The notes beneath the pieces are model-generated. The model saw only the letters and a program-made list of their open reading frames with translations, did no database searches and was not told the origin of the DNA. Of a stretch of DNA of 64,000 nucleotides, positions 26,091 to 43,783 are shown piece after piece. The position numbers were made by a program, and so were the translations under genes. The stretch's first letter is position 1, and every line of letters starts with the position of its first letter. The DNA is from Rhabdaerophilum calidifontis (GTDB taxonomy: Bacteria > Pseudomonadota > Alphaproteobacteria > Rhizobiales > Beijerinckiaceae): positions 62,001 to 126,000 of the forward strand of contig NZ_VTRS01000004.1 in NCBI RefSeq assembly GCF_008641065.1, given 5' to 3'.

Positions 26091-26666
26091 TCACGGGGCG
26101 CCTTTCCTGGCGATGCGGGTGCAGGCGGCGAGCCATGCCTGGATCGTAGCACGAGATTTCGCGACGGGAACCCGGCCGAGCGCGATCGCAAGCCCGCCGG
26201 TCACGGCCTGCGCGGCGAGGTCCGCCGGCGCGGGCGCGCCGGGATAATCGCCGACGGAGAGATTGCCGCCCGACCAGGCGGCGGCGAAGGCCGCCCAGGT
26301 CGCAGGCGCCCGCGGGTCGAGCCGTTCCGCGAGCTTCAGCGCCGTGACGCGGCGCGTCTCGCCGGGCTCGCGCAGCCAGGCCTCGGCCGCCTCGATCGCG
26401 GCGTCTCCGGCCGCGAGATCGATCTCGGGCGTCGCGCGCAGGGCGGCGCAGAGCCATCCCACCGCCTCGCGGCGGGGGAGCATATGCGCGGCGAAGCGGA
26501 TCGCGTCGAAGGGCTCCGGCCCCGCGCCCAGCCGTTCCATGAAGGCGAGCGGCGCCTCGGCGCCCGGCCGCGCGGCGATCGCCTCGCCGAGCTTCGGGAA
26601 AGCATCGAACACGGCTTCGGCGGTCTCGAAGCGGATGAGATCGGCGGAACGGGGGGGCGCGGCCAT
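26091..26666 (-). CDS. T6SS-linked protein of unknown function (DUF6931-like)
   Basis: A 191-residue, Ala-rich, mostly helical soluble protein without signal peptide. Recognisable stretches are AFPKLGEAIAARPGAEAP, the WLCAALRATPEIDLAAGD helix and TWAAFAAAWSGGNLSVGDYP. I associate these from memory with a small family (DUF6931) found next to VgrG or FHA genes in alphaproteobacterial T6SS loci; I could not check this. It starts 8 bp after the vgrG stop and ends 31 bp before tagH. Position fits a VgrG adaptor/chaperone or an immunity-like partner, but no motif decides between them. Confidence 0.6.
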   Translation of the reverse strand: MAAPPRSADLIRFETAEAVFDAFPKLGEAIAARPGAEAPLAFMERLGAGPEPFDAIRFAAHMLPRREAVGWLCAALRATPEIDLAAGDAAIEAAEAWLREPGETRRVTALKLAERLDPRAPATWAAFAAAWSGGNLSVGDYPGAPAPADLAAQAVTGGLAIALGRVPVAKSRATIQAWLAACTRIARKGAP

Positions 26667-36206: not shown

Positions 36207-37294
36207 GCGCGGGCGCGCGCCACAACCGGCCGCCGCCGCTGCCGGCCCCGCTCGCCGCCGCGCTGGAAGCCGCGCCGGAGCAGTTCGATTTCTTCGCGGT
36301 GATGCGCGCGCTCGAGGCCGGCAACCCGCAGGCGCCGCGCATCGGCGACAGCGGCGCGCTGCGCGAGGAATATGTCACGCTCGGTCAGGATCCGTTCCTG
36401 GTCTTTCCCGCCTCGAACCTCTCGAAAGCCACGGCGGACCGCGCCGGCCGGTTGCGCGTGCTCGTCCGCTTCCTCGGTTTGCTCGGCCCGCAGGGCGCAT
36501 TGCCGCTGACGACAACCGATGAAGCCCTGACCTATCTTTCGCGCGACGACGAGGCGCTGGCGCGCTTCCTCGATCTGTTCAACAATCGCTTTCTCCAACT
36601 CTTCTTCCGGGCCTGGGCCGATGCGCGGCCGATCGCGCAGGCGGACAGGCCGCGCGAGGACCGGTTCCGGGCCTATATCGGCGCCTCGATCGGCCTCGGC
36701 TCGCCGCTGGCGGCCGATCTCGATTCGGTGCCCGATGCGGTCAAGCTCCGCTTCGCGGGGCTGATGGGCGCGCAGGCCAAGAGCGCGACGCGGCTTGCCG
36801 CCCTGCTCACGGGCGTGTTCGGCACACGCTGCGAGATCGAGGAATTCGTCGGAAGCTGGCTGCTGCTGCCTTTCGGGGAACGGAGCCGGCTCGGCGGGGA
36901 GAATGCCGCGCTCGGCGGCGCGCTGATGCTCGGCGAGCGGATGTTCAGCGTCGCCGACAAGTTCCGCATCCGCATCCATGCCGCGACGCTCGCCGAATAC
37001 GAAACCTACCTGCCGACAGGGCCGCGCGCCGAGCACCTGAGCGACCTCGTGACCTTCCATCTCGGCGAGGCGCTCGATTGGGATGTCGAGCTCGCTTTGC
37101 CCGCCCGCGAGGCAAAACCGATGGTGCTCGGCCGGACCGGCCGGCTGGGCTGGACGTCGTGGATGGCACCGGACTGGTCGATCAGCGGCGATACGATCCG
37201 GCGCGATGCACGTTTCCATGTTCACATGCGGGTCAGGCAGGCCCGCGCGGCGCGCGAGGCGCGCGAATCCGCCAGCGAGGGAGCCCGGGCATGA
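36203..37294 (+). CDS. tssG: T6SS baseplate wedge protein TssG
   Basis: Partner of TssF in the baseplate (VasB/ImpH family). The 363-residue protein reads from a GTG at 36203. It contains FDFFAVMRALEAGNP, ASNLSKATADR, GLLGPQGALPLTTTDEAL, FLDLFNNRFLQLFFRAWADA and the late LPTGPRAEHLSDLVTFHLG, all matching the family. GTG is chosen because it overlaps the tssF stop and gives a normal N-terminus. The stop overlaps the tssH ATG. Confidence 0.96.
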   Translation: MSAGARHNRPPPLPAPLAAALEAAPEQFDFFAVMRALEAGNPQAPRIGDSGALREEYVTLGQDPFLVFPASNLSKATADRAGRLRVLVRFLGLLGPQGALPLTTTDEALTYLSRDDEALARFLDLFNNRFLQLFFRAWADARPIAQADRPREDRFRAYIGASIGLGSPLAADLDSVPDAVKLRFAGLMGAQAKSATRLAALLTGVFGTRCEIEEFVGSWLLLPFGERSRLGGENAALGGALMLGERMFSVADKFRIRIHAATLAEYETYLPTGPRAEHLSDLVTFHLGEALDWDVELALPAREAKPMVLGRTGRLGWTSWMAPDWSISGDTIRRDARFHVHMRVRQARAAREARESASEGARA

Positions 37295-39939
37295 CCGATA
37301 TCAGCCTTGAGAATGTTGCCGGCAAATTGAATCGTGTCGGCTATGATGCCTTCCTTCAGGCCATGCGGCTCGCGAAATCGGCCGGGAACCGCCATGTCGA
37401 GCTGGCGCATTGGCTCTTTCCGCTGCTCCAGGCGGAGGGAACGGACATTCCGGTTATCGCCGACCATTTCAAGCTCGACCGCGCAAAGCTGCTCGCCGAT
37501 TGCCAGAACGTCATCGCCGGCTTCCGTCGCAACGAGAGCGAGATGCCGGGCGTATCGAACACGATCGTCGACCTGCTCGATCGCGGCTGGCATTACGCGA
37601 CGCTGTTCTTCGGCGAGGTGCAGATCCGCTCCGGGCATCTGCTGCTCGCGGCGTTGAAATCACCGGAATTGCGGCGGGCGTTGCTGGCCGTGTCACCGGA
37701 ATTCCAGAAGATCAATACCGACACCTTCGCCGCCGAGCATCGGCGATTGCTCGCGCGCTCCGCCGAGGAGGCGATGCGGCCGATGGACGGCGCCGGGATC
37801 ACCCCAGAGCCGGGCGCGGGGGCGAAGGGCACCACGGCGCTGGACCGCTTCAGCCAGGACCTGACGGCCAGGGCGCGGGCCGGCGGCATGGATCCGGTTC
37901 TCGGACGGGATGACGAGATCCGGCAGATCATCGACGTGCTGCTGCGCCGGCGCCAGAACAACCCGATCCTCACCGGCGAGGCCGGCGTCGGGAAGACCGC
38001 CGTGGTCGAGGGGCTCGCGCAGCGGATCGTGGCCGGGGACGTGCCTCCGGCCTTGCGCGACGTGCGGCTCTGCGCGCTCGATGTCGGGCTGATGCAGGCG
38101 GGCGCCTCGATGAAGGGCGAGTTCGAGCAGCGGCTGCGCTCGGTGATCGACGAGGTGCAGGCCTCGCCCATTCCGGTGATCCTCTTCATCGACGAGGCGC
38201 ATACCTTGATCGGCGCGGGCGGCGCGGCCGGCACCGGCGATGCCGCCAACCTGCTCAAGCCGCCGCTGGCGCGCGGCACGCTGCGCACCATCGCCGCGAC
38301 GACCTGGTCGGAATACCGGCAATATATCGAGAAGGACCCGGCGCTGACGCGGCGCTTCCAGCCGGTGCAGATCGACGAGCCGGATGCGCAGCGCTGCTGC
38401 GACATGCTGCGCGGCATCCTGAAGCCGATGGAGGCGCATCACGGCGTGCGCATCGCCGATGCCGCGATCACGGCCGCGGTGATGCTCTCGCAGCGCTATA
38501 TCCCCGCCCGGCAATTGCCCGACAAGGCCGTGAGCCTGCTCGACACGGCCTGCGCGCGGGTCGCGATCAGCCAGAGCACGATCCCCGCCGGCATCGAGGA
38601 GCTGCGCGCCGCCCTCGCCGCCCGCGCCAAGGAGCGCGCTGCGCTCGTCAAGGATGCGGAACTCGGCGCCGACAATGCCCGGCGCATCGCCGAAATCGAG
38701 GCCGAGACCGAGAGGCTGGCCGCGGCCCTCGCGGCGCGCGAGGCGGACCATGCGCGGGAAAAGGCGCTGATCGACGAGATCCTGGCGCTGCGCGGCAGGC
38801 TCGGCGAGGCGATTTCCGATACCGAAGCCGCCCAGCGCGAGGCGGTGATGCAATCCCTGCGTGCCAAGGCGCGGGAACTCGATGCGCTGGCGCCCGAGAG
38901 CCGGATGATCTTCCCGCATGTCGACGCGGACACGGTCGCCGCCATCGTCTCGGACTGGACGGGGATCCCGGTCGGGCGGATGGTCAAGGACGAGATCGAG
39001 GCGGTGCTCACGCTGCCGGACATGCTCAACCGTCGCGTCGTCGGGCAGAACCACGGTCTTGCGATGATCGCGAAGCGGATCGAGACCAGCCGCGCCAAGC
39101 TCGACAACCCTTCCAAGCCGATCGGCGTCTTCATGCTCTGCGGGCCCTCCGGCGTCGGCAAGACCGAAACCGCACTCGCGCTGGCCGAGGCGCTCTACGG
39201 TGGCGAGCAGAATATCATCACCATCAACATGAGCGAGTTCCAGGAGGCGCATACCGTCTCCACGCTCAAGGGCGCCCCGCCCGGCTATGTCGGCTATGGC
39301 GAGGGCGGACGGCTGACGGAAGCCGTGCGCCGCAAGCCCTATTCCGTGGTGCTGCTCGACGAGGTGGAGAAGGCGCATCCGGACGTACACGAGATCTTCT
39401 TCCAGGTCTTCGACAAGGGCATGATGGAGGACGGGACCGGACGGCGGATCGATTTCCGCAACACGCTGATCATCCTCACCTCGAATGTCGGCACCGAGCG
39501 GCTGATGCATCTCGCGGCGAAGGAGGAATTCCGCTCCGACCCGGAGAAGCTCGCCGCCGCGCTCAAGCCGGATCTCCTGGAGGTATTCCCGCCGGCCCTG
39601 CTCGGGCGCATCGTGACGATTCCCTATTTCCCGCTCTCGCCGGAGATGCTTGGCGGCATCGTCCGGCTCCAGCTCGGCCGGATAGAGAAGCGGATCCGCG
39701 AGAACCACGGCGCGGCCTTCACCTATGACGCGGCGGTGGTCGAGAAGATCGTCGGGCTGTGCAACGATCCCGCCAGCGGCGGACGCATGGTCGACAACAT
39801 TCTGACCAACGCCATCCTGCCGGAGATGTCGCGGCGCATCCTCGGACTTCAGGTCGAGCGGAAGGCGCTGGAGCGCATCCATGTCGGGGTGGAGGACGGC
39901 GTCTTCACCTTCCTCGCGACCGGAAGCGATGCCGGCTGA
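37291..39939 (+). CDS. tssH: T6SS ATPase TssH (ClpV)
   Basis: AAA+ disaggregase that recycles the contracted sheath. The 882-residue protein has an N domain (about 1-155), AAA1 with Walker A GEAGVGKT (229-236), VILFIDEAHTLIGAG and ROQ-like RGTLRTIAATTWSEYRQYIE. A ClpB-like middle region follows, then AAA2 with GPSGVGKTETALALAEALYG, GAPPGYVGYGEGG and LLDEVEKAHPDV. The ATG at 37291 overlaps the tssG stop and gives the ClpV-type N-terminus MTDISLENVAGKLN. ClpV rather than ClpB follows from the N domain and the genetic context. It ends the operon and converges with mbfA (11-bp gap). Confidence 0.97.
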   Translation: MTDISLENVAGKLNRVGYDAFLQAMRLAKSAGNRHVELAHWLFPLLQAEGTDIPVIADHFKLDRAKLLADCQNVIAGFRRNESEMPGVSNTIVDLLDRGWHYATLFFGEVQIRSGHLLLAALKSPELRRALLAVSPEFQKINTDTFAAEHRRLLARSAEEAMRPMDGAGITPEPGAGAKGTTALDRFSQDLTARARAGGMDPVLGRDDEIRQIIDVLLRRRQNNPILTGEAGVGKTAVVEGLAQRIVAGDVPPALRDVRLCALDVGLMQAGASMKGEFEQRLRSVIDEVQASPIPVILFIDEAHTLIGAGGAAGTGDAANLLKPPLARGTLRTIAATTWSEYRQYIEKDPALTRRFQPVQIDEPDAQRCCDMLRGILKPMEAHHGVRIADAAITAAVMLSQRYIPARQLPDKAVSLLDTACARVAISQSTIPAGIEELRAALAARAKERAALVKDAELGADNARRIAEIEAETERLAAALAAREADHAREKALIDEILALRGRLGEAISDTEAAQREAVMQSLRAKARELDALAPESRMIFPHVDADTVAAIVSDWTGIPVGRMVKDEIEAVLTLPDMLNRRVVGQNHGLAMIAKRIETSRAKLDNPSKPIGVFMLCGPSGVGKTETALALAEALYGGEQNIITINMSEFQEAHTVSTLKGAPPGYVGYGEGGRLTEAVRRKPYSVVLLDEVEKAHPDVHEIFFQVFDKGMMEDGTGRRIDFRNTLIILTSNVGTERLMHLAAKEEFRSDPEKLAAALKPDLLEVFPPALLGRIVTIPYFPLSPEMLGGIVRLQLGRIEKRIRENHGAAFTYDAAVVEKIVGLCNDPASGGRMVDNILTNAILPEMSRRILGLQVERKALERIHVGVEDGVFTFLATGSDAG

Positions 39940-39950
39940 ACAGGCCGCGC

Positions 39951-40955
39951 TCAGGCGCTGCCGATGAAGATGCCGGCGAGCAGGACCATCGTGCCGCCGA
40001 CCACGACCTGGAACACCGAGCGCAGGAACGGCGTTTCCATATAATGCGTGCGGATCCAGGCGATCGCCACGAGTTCTGCCGCGACGATCAGCGCCGCCGT
40101 CAGTGTCGCGATGTGGAAGGCGTTTGGCCAGGAATCCGGCACGAGATAGGGCAGCGTGTGGCCGAGCCCACCGAGCATGGTCATCAGCCCGCAGACGAGG
40201 CCCCGCAGCCAGGGCGCGCCGCGCCCGGAAATGATGCCGTCATCGCTCATCGCCTCGGTGATGCCCATCGAGATCCCGGCCCCGACGGAGGCGGCGAGCC
40301 CGACAAGGAAGGTCTCCTTGTTCGATTGCGTCGCGAAGGCCGCCGCGAAGAGTGGTGCCAGCGTCGAAACCGAGCCGTCGATCAACCCCGCGAGCCCCGG
40401 CTGGACATAGGTGAGCACGATGCGGCGATGGCGCGCCGTGCTTTCTGCATCGCGCGCAGCCTCGGTGAGATGCTCCGCCTCCAGCCGTCCGGCCCGCTCC
40501 TCGTGGCCGCGCTCGGCCTCGGCGAGATGGTTGAACAGCGCGCGAAGCCGGGCATCGCGGGAGCGTGCCGCCGCCGCGGCATAGAAGGTCTCCGCGCGGC
40601 GCTCGCGGGCCGTGGCTTCGGACCGCATCCGCTCCGGCTGCGCCAGGACCGCGCCGGGAGGCGGCGCCGGCATGCGCGGCAGACCCCGGATCTCCTCGGT
40701 GCGGATCGGCGGCAGGATGTCGCCGAAACGCTCGCGATAGAGCGCGAGCAAGGAATCGCGATGCGCGCGCTCCTCCGCGGCCATGGCGGCGAAAAACCCG
40801 GCCGAGGCGGGATAGGAGCCGGCGCAGGCATCCGCAAAATCCTGGTAGCGGCGCGCATCGTCCTCCTCGCTGAAAACGGCCAGGGCAATCAGTTCCCGTT
40901 CGGTCAGATCGTCGATCGACCGGCGGCGGAACGGGAGAATCGCGGACATGGGCAT
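39951..40955 (-). CDS. mbfA: Membrane-bound ferritin-like iron exporter MbfA (erythrin-VIT1 family)
   Basis: Inner-membrane protein that exports iron under iron excess or peroxide stress in characterised alphaproteobacteria. The 334-residue protein has an N-terminal ferritin-like (erythrin) domain with diiron-type motifs EEDDARRYQDF (about residues 30-40), EERAHRDSLL (about 61-70) and AERGHEERA (about 145-153). A C-terminal VIT1/CCC1-type domain follows (about 175-334) with several membrane helices and GLIDGSVSTLAPLFAAAF, ASVGAGISMGITEAMSDDG. An Irr-type iron control element lies 19-35 bp upstream of the start, so low-iron repression by Irr is expected. The ATG at 40955 or the second at 40949 are both possible. 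It follows mutS by 104 bp on the same strand. Confidence 0.93.
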   Translation of the reverse strand: MPMSAILPFRRRSIDDLTERELIALAVFSEEDDARRYQDFADACAGSYPASAGFFAAMAAEERAHRDSLLALYRERFGDILPPIRTEEIRGLPRMPAPPPGAVLAQPERMRSEATARERRAETFYAAAAARSRDARLRALFNHLAEAERGHEERAGRLEAEHLTEAARDAESTARHRRIVLTYVQPGLAGLIDGSVSTLAPLFAAAFATQSNKETFLVGLAASVGAGISMGITEAMSDDGIISGRGAPWLRGLVCGLMTMLGGLGHTLPYLVPDSWPNAFHIATLTAALIVAAELVAIAWIRTHYMETPFLRSVFQVVVGGTMVLLAGIFIGSA

Positions 40956-40973
40956 GGCAGGACCGGCGCATGA

Positions 40974-40990
40974 TTTAGAATAAATCTAAA
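40974..40990 (-). promoter_or_regulatory. Iron control element (ICE), candidate Irr-binding site upstream of mbfA
   Basis: The plus strand reads TTTAGAATAAATCTAAA, an almost perfect inverted repeat matching the ICE pattern TTTAGAA-N3-TTCTAAA at 13 of 14 fixed positions. It begins 19 bp upstream of the mbfA start codon, where it would overlap the promoter or transcription start. It stands out as an A/T-rich patch in very GC-rich DNA. mbfA is a known Irr target in other alphaproteobacteria, so site and gene support each other. Confidence 0.8.
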
Positions 40991-41059
40991 CTAGGCGCTC
41001 AAATCCCCCGCCGCAAGAGGCCGCGTCGCATGATTGCCGGCCGCGGCCATGCGTCGCGC

Positions 41060-43783
41060 TCAGGTCGCCGGGTCCGCCAGAGCCTTGAGGCGGTAGAGCG
41101 CGTCGAGTGCCTCGCGCGGGGTCATCTCGTCCGGCCGGATCGCGTCGAGCGCGGCGCGCAAAGCGTCCGGGGCGGGCGGTGGCTGGACGGCACGAAACAG
41201 CGGCAGGTCATCCACGAGCCGCGTCACGGGGGCGGCGCGATCCGCCTTCTCCAGTTCGGCGAGGATGGCGCCTGCGCGGCGGATGACGCCCGGCGGCAGC
41301 CCGGCCAGCTTCGCGACCTGGATGCCGTAGGAGCGGTCGGCAGCCCCGGGAACCACCTCGTGCAGGAAGACGACATCGCCCTTGTAGGTGGCGACCTTCA
41401 TCGTCACCGGATGCAGGCGCCCGAGCTTCGCCGAAAGGGCGGTGAGTTCATGGAAATGCGTCGCGAACAGCGCCCGGCAGCGGTTGACATCATGCAGGTG
41501 CTCGATCGCCGCCCAGGCGATCGACAGTCCGTCATAGGTCGCGGTGCCGCGGCCGATCTCGTCGAGGATCACCAGCGCCCGCGGGCCGGCCTGATTGAGG
41601 ATCGCCGCGGTCTCGACCATCTCGACCATGAAGGTCGAACGTCCGCGCGCGAGGTCGTCCGCCGCGCCGACGCGGCTGAACAGGCGATCGACGATGCCGA
41701 TCCGCGCCCGCCGCGCCGGAACGAAGGCGCCCATCTGCGCGAGAATGGCGATCAGCGCATTCTGGCGGAGATAGGTCGATTTGCCGGCCATGTTGGCGCC
41801 CGTCACCAGCAGGATCCGCCCGGCGCCGCCCGGATCCTCGGGCGAAAGATCGCAGGGATTGGCGATGAAGGCGCTGCCGCCCCGCTGCATCGCGCGCTCG
41901 ACGACCGGATGACGCCCCTCCTCGATCGCGAAGGTGGCATCCTCGGTGATTTCCGGACGCGTCCAGCCGCCGCGATCGGCGATCTCGGCGAGACCGGCGA
42001 GGACATCAAGCGTCGCGAGCGCCTCGGCGCCGGCGCGGATCGCAGCGTCGGCGGCCGCGATTTCGGCGGCGAAGGCGGCGAAATGGTCGAGTTCCCGCTG
42101 CAAGGCACGCCCCGAAGCCTCGCCGATCCGATGTTCGAGCGCGGAGAGTTCGGCGGTCGAGAAGCGCATCGCCCCGGCCATGGTCTGGCGGTGGACGAAG
42201 GTCGCGGCGAGCGGCGGGCGCAGCATCGCCTCGCCGACCGCCTGCGGCACCTCGACGAAATAGCCGAGCTGGTTGTTGTGCTTGATCCGCAGCCCGCGCG
42301 CGCCGGTCTCCTCGGCGTAGCGCGTCTGGAGCCCGGCAATCACCGCGCGGGAATTGTCGCGCAGCGCGTGCAACTCGTCGAGAACGGCATCGAAACCGGG
42401 GCGGATGAAGCCGCCATCCCGCTTCTGGAGCGGCACATCCTCCCGCAGCGCCGCGAGCAGGCCGGCTCCGAGCGCCGCCGGCGCCGCGAGCAGCGCATGG
42501 CCCAGCCGCGCGAGCATTTCCGGAAGATCGGGGCGTGCTGTGAGGCGGGCGGCGATCCCCTCGCACTCGACCAGCGCCTGACCGATCGCGATCAGGTCGC
42601 GGGGGCCGGCCCGATCGAGTGCGAGGCGTGCGAGCGACCGCGGCATGTCCGGGCAGCGCCGGAGCCGCTGCCGAAGATCGCGGCGGGCCTCGCCATCCGC
42701 GACCAGCGCCGAGACCGCGTCATGCCGGGCCCGGATCGCGCCGGGATCGGTCAGCGGGCCGGCCAGCCATTGCGCGAGCAGGCGTCCGCCGCCGGGGCTC
42801 ACCGTCTCGTCGATGGTCGCGAGCAGGCTCCCCTCGCGCGCGCCGCCGAGCGTGCGCACCAGTTCGAGATTGGCGCGCGTCGCGGCGTCGATGGCCATGG
42901 TCGCCGAACGGGCGATGCGACGCGGCGGCATCAGCGGCGGACGGGCCTGAAGCTGGGTCCGTTCGAGATAGACGATGATCGCGGCGAGCGCGGCGATTTC
43001 GGGGCGGCTGAATGTGCCGAAGCCGGCCAGCGTCGCGACCCCGTAATAGGCAGCGACACGGCTCTCGCCGCTCGCCGGGTCGAAGCCCTCGCGCGGAAGC
43101 CGCGTGACGGCGGCGCGCGGATCGTTCAGCAGCCCGGAAAGCGCCGGATCTTCGCGGAGTGCATCCGGAACCAGCAATTCGCTCGGATCAAGCCGGTCGA
43201 TCTCGCCGGCAAGGTCGGCGGCGTCCACCAAGGCGAGCCGGCATTCGCCTGTCGAGATGTCGACGGCAGCCAGGGCGTAATCATGGCTGCCGCCCTCGGC
43301 CTTCTGTCGCGCCAGCGCGACGAGCATGTTGGCGCGGCGCGCGTCAAGCAGCCCCTCCTCGGTGATGGTGCCGGGGGTGACGATGCGGACGACATCGCGC
43401 CTCACCACGGCCTTGGCGCCGCGCTTGCGCGCCTCGGCCGGGTCTTCGAGCTGCTCGCACACCGCCACGCGATGCCCGGCGGCGATGAGGCGCTGGAGAT
43501 ATTCGTCGGCGCGAACGACCGGCACCCCGCACATCGGGATATCCTGCCCGGCATGCCGGCCACGCTTCGTGAGCACGATGCCGAGGGTCCGCGCGGCGAT
43601 CTCGGCATCGGCGAAGAACAATTCGTAGAAATCGCCCATCCGGTAGAACAGCAGGCAATCCGGGTTTGCGGCCTTGATCTCGATATATTGCGCCATCGAG
43701 GGCGTTGCCCGCGCCGCTTCGTTGTGCACGGGCGACGGCGCCTCGTAAGGCTCCTGCGGCGGATCAAAGGCGGGGTCGCGCAT
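41060..43783 (-). CDS. mutS: DNA mismatch repair protein MutS
   Basis: Mismatch-recognition ATPase, 907 residues. The N-terminal mismatch-binding domain shows [20 protein letters not shown], containing the Phe-x-Glu motif (FYE), and [14 protein letters not shown]. The C-terminal ATPase has Walker [29 protein letters not shown] and [19 protein letters not shown], followed by THFHELTAL. The C-terminal part ends in the expected helix-turn-helix dimer region. The start at 43783 places a short unconserved N-terminus before the typical core; an internal ATG nearer the core (MAQYIEIKA) is possible. It is divergent from maeB. Confidence 0.97.

Follow-up and report, generated by a model that had tools for sequence, protein, structure and literature searches.

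The window (the whole stretch of DNA analysed, 64,000 nucleotides long) contained a gene for an MbfA-like protein, the upstream gene mutS on the same strand and, in the gap between the two, a short palindrome (Table 1). The palindrome read TTTAGAATAAATCTAAA, exactly as the sequence-only reading had written it, and TTTAGATTTATTCTAAA on the gene strand. We take the consensus of the iron control element (ICE, or Irr box) to be TTTAGAANNNTTCTAAA, an A+T-rich inverted repeat of the form TTTAGAA-N3-TTCTAAA. The site matched this consensus at 13 of 14 fixed positions, the single mismatch being one base in one half-site, and its earlier description as a nearly exact ICE was borne out. A text search of the literature with the first half of the consensus found no Irr paper by title among the matches listed. 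The first ATG of mbfA was at 40955 on the minus strand, with 18 bases between it and the palindrome, so that, counted from the A of this start codon, the palindrome spans -35 to -19. This agrees with the placement 19-35 bp ahead of the gene that had been claimed. A second in-frame ATG was present at 40949, and its use would put the site 6 bases further off.

Table 1. Features at the mbfA locus, in window coordinates
Feature	Position	Strand	Basis or remark
mbfA, 334 aa	39951..40955	-	ORF; rubrerythrin/ferritin-like N-terminus, VIT1 C-terminus
mutS-mbfA gap, 104 bases, containing the predicted operator	40956..41059	-	ORF table
ICE (Irr box)	40974..40990	-	exact match, shuffle control, genome uniqueness, conservation
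putative -10 element TAGTTT	40988..40993	-	overlaps the distal edge of the ICE
putative -35 element TTGCGG	41011..41016	-	17 bases before the putative -10; weak alone
mutS, upstream gene (context only)	41060..43783	-	five MutS Pfam domains

The gene had been called a membrane ferritin-like exporter, and its product was indeed MbfA-like. It possessed a rubrerythrin domain (PF02915, residues 21-158) and a VIT1 domain (PF01988, residues 246-332), an N-terminal ferritin-like domain thus being fused to a VIT1 membrane domain as in the MbfA architecture. The NCBIfam model FeExpMbfA (NF045676) matched over the full length with 447.1 bits, 3 bits short of its curated cut-off of 450. From residue 188 onward, four segments exceeded the hydrophobicity threshold used. 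When the protein was aligned with seven others that were 50-68% identical to it, residues E30, E31, E61, E62, H65, E118, E148 and H151 of the ferritin-like part were invariant in all eight sequences, as was much of the C-terminal part. A sequence search of solved structures at an E-value of 0.01 returned no match to MbfA. On the plus strand, an ORF at 37078-39939 ended near the 3' end of mbfA, and its translation resembled a ClpV/TssH-type AAA ATPase (type VI secretion).

Conservation of the site and its chance controls

With up to 3 mismatches permitted on both strands, the 17-mer had no match when the window was dinucleotide-shuffled 100 times, and the next-best ICE match within the window itself had 5 mismatches. 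For sites with at most 1 mismatch, a composition model gave an expectation of 0.0001 in the window and 0.005 in the genome, and the site ahead of mbfA was the only one within 1 mismatch of TTTAGAANNNTTCTAAA in the 3,086,309-base genome (19 contigs). Blind counting over the whole genome showed no excess of ICE-like sites over a reversed control pattern: there were 4 against 3 at up to 2 mismatches and 14 against 13 at up to 3. As the reversed pattern gave similar numbers, loose ICE matches are not trustworthy by count alone. Leaving positions 4 and 14 of the pattern free gave 5 genome sites against 0 in the control, only 3 of them ahead of genes and 2 within script-called ORFs. In the genome-wide motif search that the sequence-only reading had proposed, the mbfA site was unique at up to 1 mismatch and the looser sites only equalled the reversed control. 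The case for the predicted ICE is one of position and conservation, not of blind counts.

Conservation was scored in 260 bases around the mbfA match start at 53 loci. Named genomes or bins supplied 22 of these, members of the same family 29 (one in the same genus) and a plasmid one; the last was the window itself. The named genomes and bins had yielded 24 mbfA loci, of which two (L034 and L041) were left out because they were cut at a contig end. Among the mbfA match rows, 30 of 47 had loci and were examined, one being the window's own gene. The best mbfA relatives in named genomes were labelled Beijerinckiaceae, Hyphomicrobiales/Rhizobiales, Methylobacterium and similar. Two loci were removed as duplicates by upstream sequence (L044, equal to L020, and L045, equal to L022), leaving 51 distinct loci; the former pair consists of the same-genus genome G026 and Rhizobiales bacterium SYSU XM002, which were identical upstream of mbfA, making the organism studied here a probable congener of the SYSU XM002 isolate.

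An ICE with up to 3 mismatches was found upstream of mbfA in 43 of the 51 distinct loci, compared with 5 of 995 control stretches, which were other 260-base stretches from the same loci and the window. At up to 2 mismatches the counts were 37 of 51 and 1 of 995. In the 43 conserved sites the consensus base was present at positions 2-7, 11-13, 15 and 16 in 39 to 43 instances. The ends were looser (position 1 was consensus in 33 and position 17 in 29), and the three central bases varied more, with T favoured at position 8 and A at position 10. Position 4 was A in 42 of the 43, and position 14 was T in only 15. The eight distinct loci lacking an ICE at mbfA belonged to distant alphaproteobacterial bins (L035-L039) and to three family members (L063, L067 and L069).

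Irr was searched for in the 52 genomes with a scored mbfA upstream region, the plasmid record being set aside, and was above cut-off in 49 of them. The mbfA ICE was present in 44 of these 49 and in none of the three genomes without Irr, these three being the only Irr-less genomes available for comparison. Two genomes were counted twice, and the distinct tally of the ICE with Irr is 42 of 47. Five genomes (G003, G033, G045, G078 and G079) possessed Irr and mbfA without an ICE at mbfA. On the conjugative-typed Bradyrhizobium betae plasmid pBbPL7HG1, a perfect ICE preceded mbfA. This was the one record in which the ICE was looked for among 17 in the plasmid collection with distant mbfA relatives. 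Viral contigs, scanned once with a pattern, yielded no relative.

Irr and other ICE-like sites in the genome

Repression of mbfA by Irr, as the sequence-only reading proposed, requires an Irr homologue, and the genome proved to encode two. Among its four Fur-family proteins, two exceeded both NCBIfam Irr cut-offs (150 and 170), one with 208.5 and 202.3 bits and the other with 177.4 and 177.3 bits. The remaining pair comprised one Fur/Mur-like and one Zur-like protein, each under the cut-off of its model. Irr1 was encoded on contig 11, beside a gene read from its translation as FabA, and Irr2 on contig 2, where a bfd-like gene and then bacterioferritin follow. Both Irr proteins contained an N-terminal Cys-Pro (CPV), which we take to be the heme regulatory motif of Irr, and an HHH motif (DHHH). 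In the structure search, the matches to Irr1 were Fur, PerR and further members of the Fur family, none of them named Irr, together with two oddly named chains. Three Rrf2 proteins were above the Pfam cut-off, with RirA-model scores of 46, 112 and 71 bits; none in the genome reached the RirA cut-off of 193, the best being at 112.

Genes around the genome sites were called with a simple ORF script. All four ICE-like sites with up to 2 mismatches were outside ORFs and ahead of genes. Besides the one at mbfA, one lay in the divergent gap separating irr2 from the gene of an ABC transporter binding protein, one upstream of a cysteine desulfurase gene that is followed by genes read as sufB, sufC and sufD, and one before a TonB-receptor-like gene. 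The suf site (contig 15, 214720-214736) was a long palindrome containing CTTAGAACAATTCTAAG and lay between a hydrolase gene and the cysteine desulfurase gene of the suf cluster. The TonB-receptor-like assignment was marginal, with a Pfam score of 27.5 bits against a cut-off of 27 and a sole NCBIfam match, to a copper receptor, far below cut-off. At 3 mismatches, further sites were ahead of bfr, sdhC and the hmuP/heme receptor genes; the hmuP site lies within the ORF if the longest start is taken, but upstream of a later ATG.

Thus, 7 of the 14 ICE-like sites with up to 3 mismatches were at iron, heme, Fe-S or TonB genes. The remainder comprised five sites inside ORFs, one that faced no gene and one that preceded an ORF with no Pfam match. 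Among the five intra-ORF sites, one lies before the part of a moaA ORF in which domains were recognised and may be upstream of the true moaA start. Loci were available for 10 of the 13 reversed-control sites (three had none), and the genes next to these were assessed from their translations. None of these 10 was ahead of a gene recognisable in this way as iron-related. By the script, 8 of the 14 ICE-like sites were outside ORFs, compared with 3 of the 10 reversed-control sites with loci. The three reversed-pattern sites with up to 2 mismatches comprised one outside ORFs, ahead of two genes, and two inside ORFs.

A putative operator-promoter and the alternatives

A putative promoter could be placed over the palindrome (Table 1). 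The hexamers TTGCGG and TAGTTT are poor matches in the window, and their positions were taken retrospectively from relatives. Among the 43 conserved upstream regions, 27 had TTG at either of two matching -35 registers, which were chosen post hoc; shuffling gave a mean of 2.8 and a largest value of 10 in 2000 shuffles, and shifted registers gave 13 at most. At the -10 positions, TA was present in 21 of the 43 and A in 32. A promoter scan reported a single site, on the opposite strand, and not the putative mbfA elements. With this placement the transcription start of mbfA would fall inside the ICE.

We consider it very probable that the palindrome is an Irr operator lying on the mbfA core promoter, through which Irr would repress mbfA when iron is low. 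Two Irr proteins above cut-off, a site conserved in place and an MbfA-like gene speak for the repression that had been proposed, as far as sequence can. Under low iron or heme, Irr would be present, occupy the ICE and block RNA polymerase, and the exporter would not be made. When iron is plentiful, heme would load onto the His-rich and Cys-Pro sites of Irr, and Irr would be destroyed or released; with Irr gone, mbfA would be transcribed and MbfA would export or detoxify iron.

The palindrome might be bound not by Irr but by a different regulator of the Fur family (Fur/Mur or Zur) or of the Rrf2 family (an IscR/RirA/NsrR-like protein), and the genome does encode a Fur/Mur-like and a Zur-like protein, both below cut-offs, and three Rrf2 proteins. 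The motif, however, has the form of an ICE and not of a Fur or Zur box, no Rrf2 protein was at the RirA cut-off, and presence of the ICE tracks that of Irr, although the Irr-less genomes number only three. In addition, bfr, sufA and sdhC are described in an excerpt of PMC4902296 as Irr-repressed in B. japonicum, and in the present genome ICE-like sites accompany bfr, the suf genes and sdhC. Because motif, target genes and co-occurrence all point to Irr, we regard another regulator as quite unlikely. We also considered that the A+T-rich palindrome might be bound by no regulator and be a mere -10 region, or an mRNA hairpin or terminator between mutS and mbfA. It does overlap the inferred -10 and can form a 7-pair hairpin (-4.7 kcal/mol, z -3.1), but a scan of 40900-41200 found no terminator-like hairpin, and the 111-base leader folded little better than its shuffles (z -1.0; 29 of 200 at least as stable). 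Base pairing is not the conserved trait, since A at position 4 was kept in 42 of 43 sites and its partner T at position 14 in only 15. The terminator and RNA-hairpin readings were rejected on these three grounds. ICE-like sites also precede other iron genes, and we judge an explanation without a regulator to be very unlikely as a whole.

Were the match no more than an A+T-rich run that arose by chance against a G+C-rich background, this would accord with the blind counts, in which ICE-like sites only equalled the reversed control. Against this stand the absence of any match in the 100 shuffles, the uniqueness of the site at up to 1 mismatch in 3.09 Mb and, above all, the recurrence of a site at this position in 43 of 51 loci, compared with 5 of 995 controls. 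Given this conservation, chance is extremely unlikely.

The preferred reading, an Irr operator at mbfA, has precedents. A 2006 study reportedly predicted Irr sites genome-wide, and a 2014 study is said to have dealt with the affinity of Bradyrhizobium Irr. In Bradyrhizobium japonicum, Irr represses mbfA (blr7895), with bfr, sufA and sdhC repressed likewise (PMC4902296, in excerpt). It is described there as the only global iron regulator, with a heme regulatory motif that takes part in heme-dependent degradation and an HxH motif (PMC7762939, in excerpt). The R. calidifontis genome fits the Bradyrhizobium type of Irr in that none of its Rrf2 proteins reached the RirA cut-off and in the HHH and Cys-Pro motifs of its Irr proteins. 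It differs from B. japonicum in a second Irr gene with an upstream ICE-like site of its own, and binding and regulation here are predicted.

In Rhodobacter sphaeroides, Irr binds the promoter of mbfA (RSP_0850) and the 5' end of the mRNA is inside the box (PMC3413700, in excerpt); the start was mapped there, whereas we infer a similar one here. Under iron limitation, mbfA was about 8-fold higher in the irr mutant, and the excerpted text has the authors assigning Irr no major role in the iron response of mbfA (PMC3413700). A real ICE does not guarantee a strong iron response. In Brucella melitensis, Irr binds an ICE at the mbfA-like gene BME_RS01725 and represses it at low iron (PMC10374146, in excerpt). 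The ICE at an mbfA-like gene is shared with the present locus, with Irr binding shown in that species and predicted here. Unlike in B. melitensis, where RirA is among the Irr targets according to the same excerpt, no Rrf2 protein was at the RirA cut-off in our genome. The Irr-mbfA design is thus already documented in Bradyrhizobium, Rhodobacter and Brucella, and the present locus adds one more case. It would extend the known switch to another lineage, near Beijerinckiaceae and Methylobacterium relatives, and the mbfA ICE may serve as a trustworthy anchor for mapping the iron regulon.

The second irr gene

The irr2 gene was itself preceded by an ICE-like site (contig 2, 25397-25413), with a weaker one ahead of bfr (26243-26259) in the order irr2-bfd-bfr. 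Within 300 bases upstream of irr2, a site with up to 2 mismatches was present both in this genome and at each of the five closest Irr2 relatives found (58-59% identity). Over all irr loci examined, 7 of 29 had such an upstream site, and none of the 10 irr genes adjoining fabA had one even at up to 3 mismatches. This pattern suggests that the second Irr may be self-regulated. In a literature search of open-access scope, no title on paired or self-regulated Irr was present among the matches listed.

More tentatively, a lineage with two Irr proteins and no RirA might combine an Irr1 lacking an ICE-like site of its own with an Irr2 under Irr feedback control, which could give the operators of mbfA and bfr a second threshold. 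We hold this arrangement to be possible but rather doubtful. If self-regulation of Irr2 is true, it might show how Irr-only bacteria grade their iron response.

The flanks examined reached 1.5 kb, and within them bfr accompanied irr2 in this genome alone. In two of the relatives (L088, 1-1977, and L090, 1-1962), irr2 was divergent to a gene that reads as an ABC transporter metal-binding protein, an arrangement in which the ICE-like site of irr2 may serve both directions.
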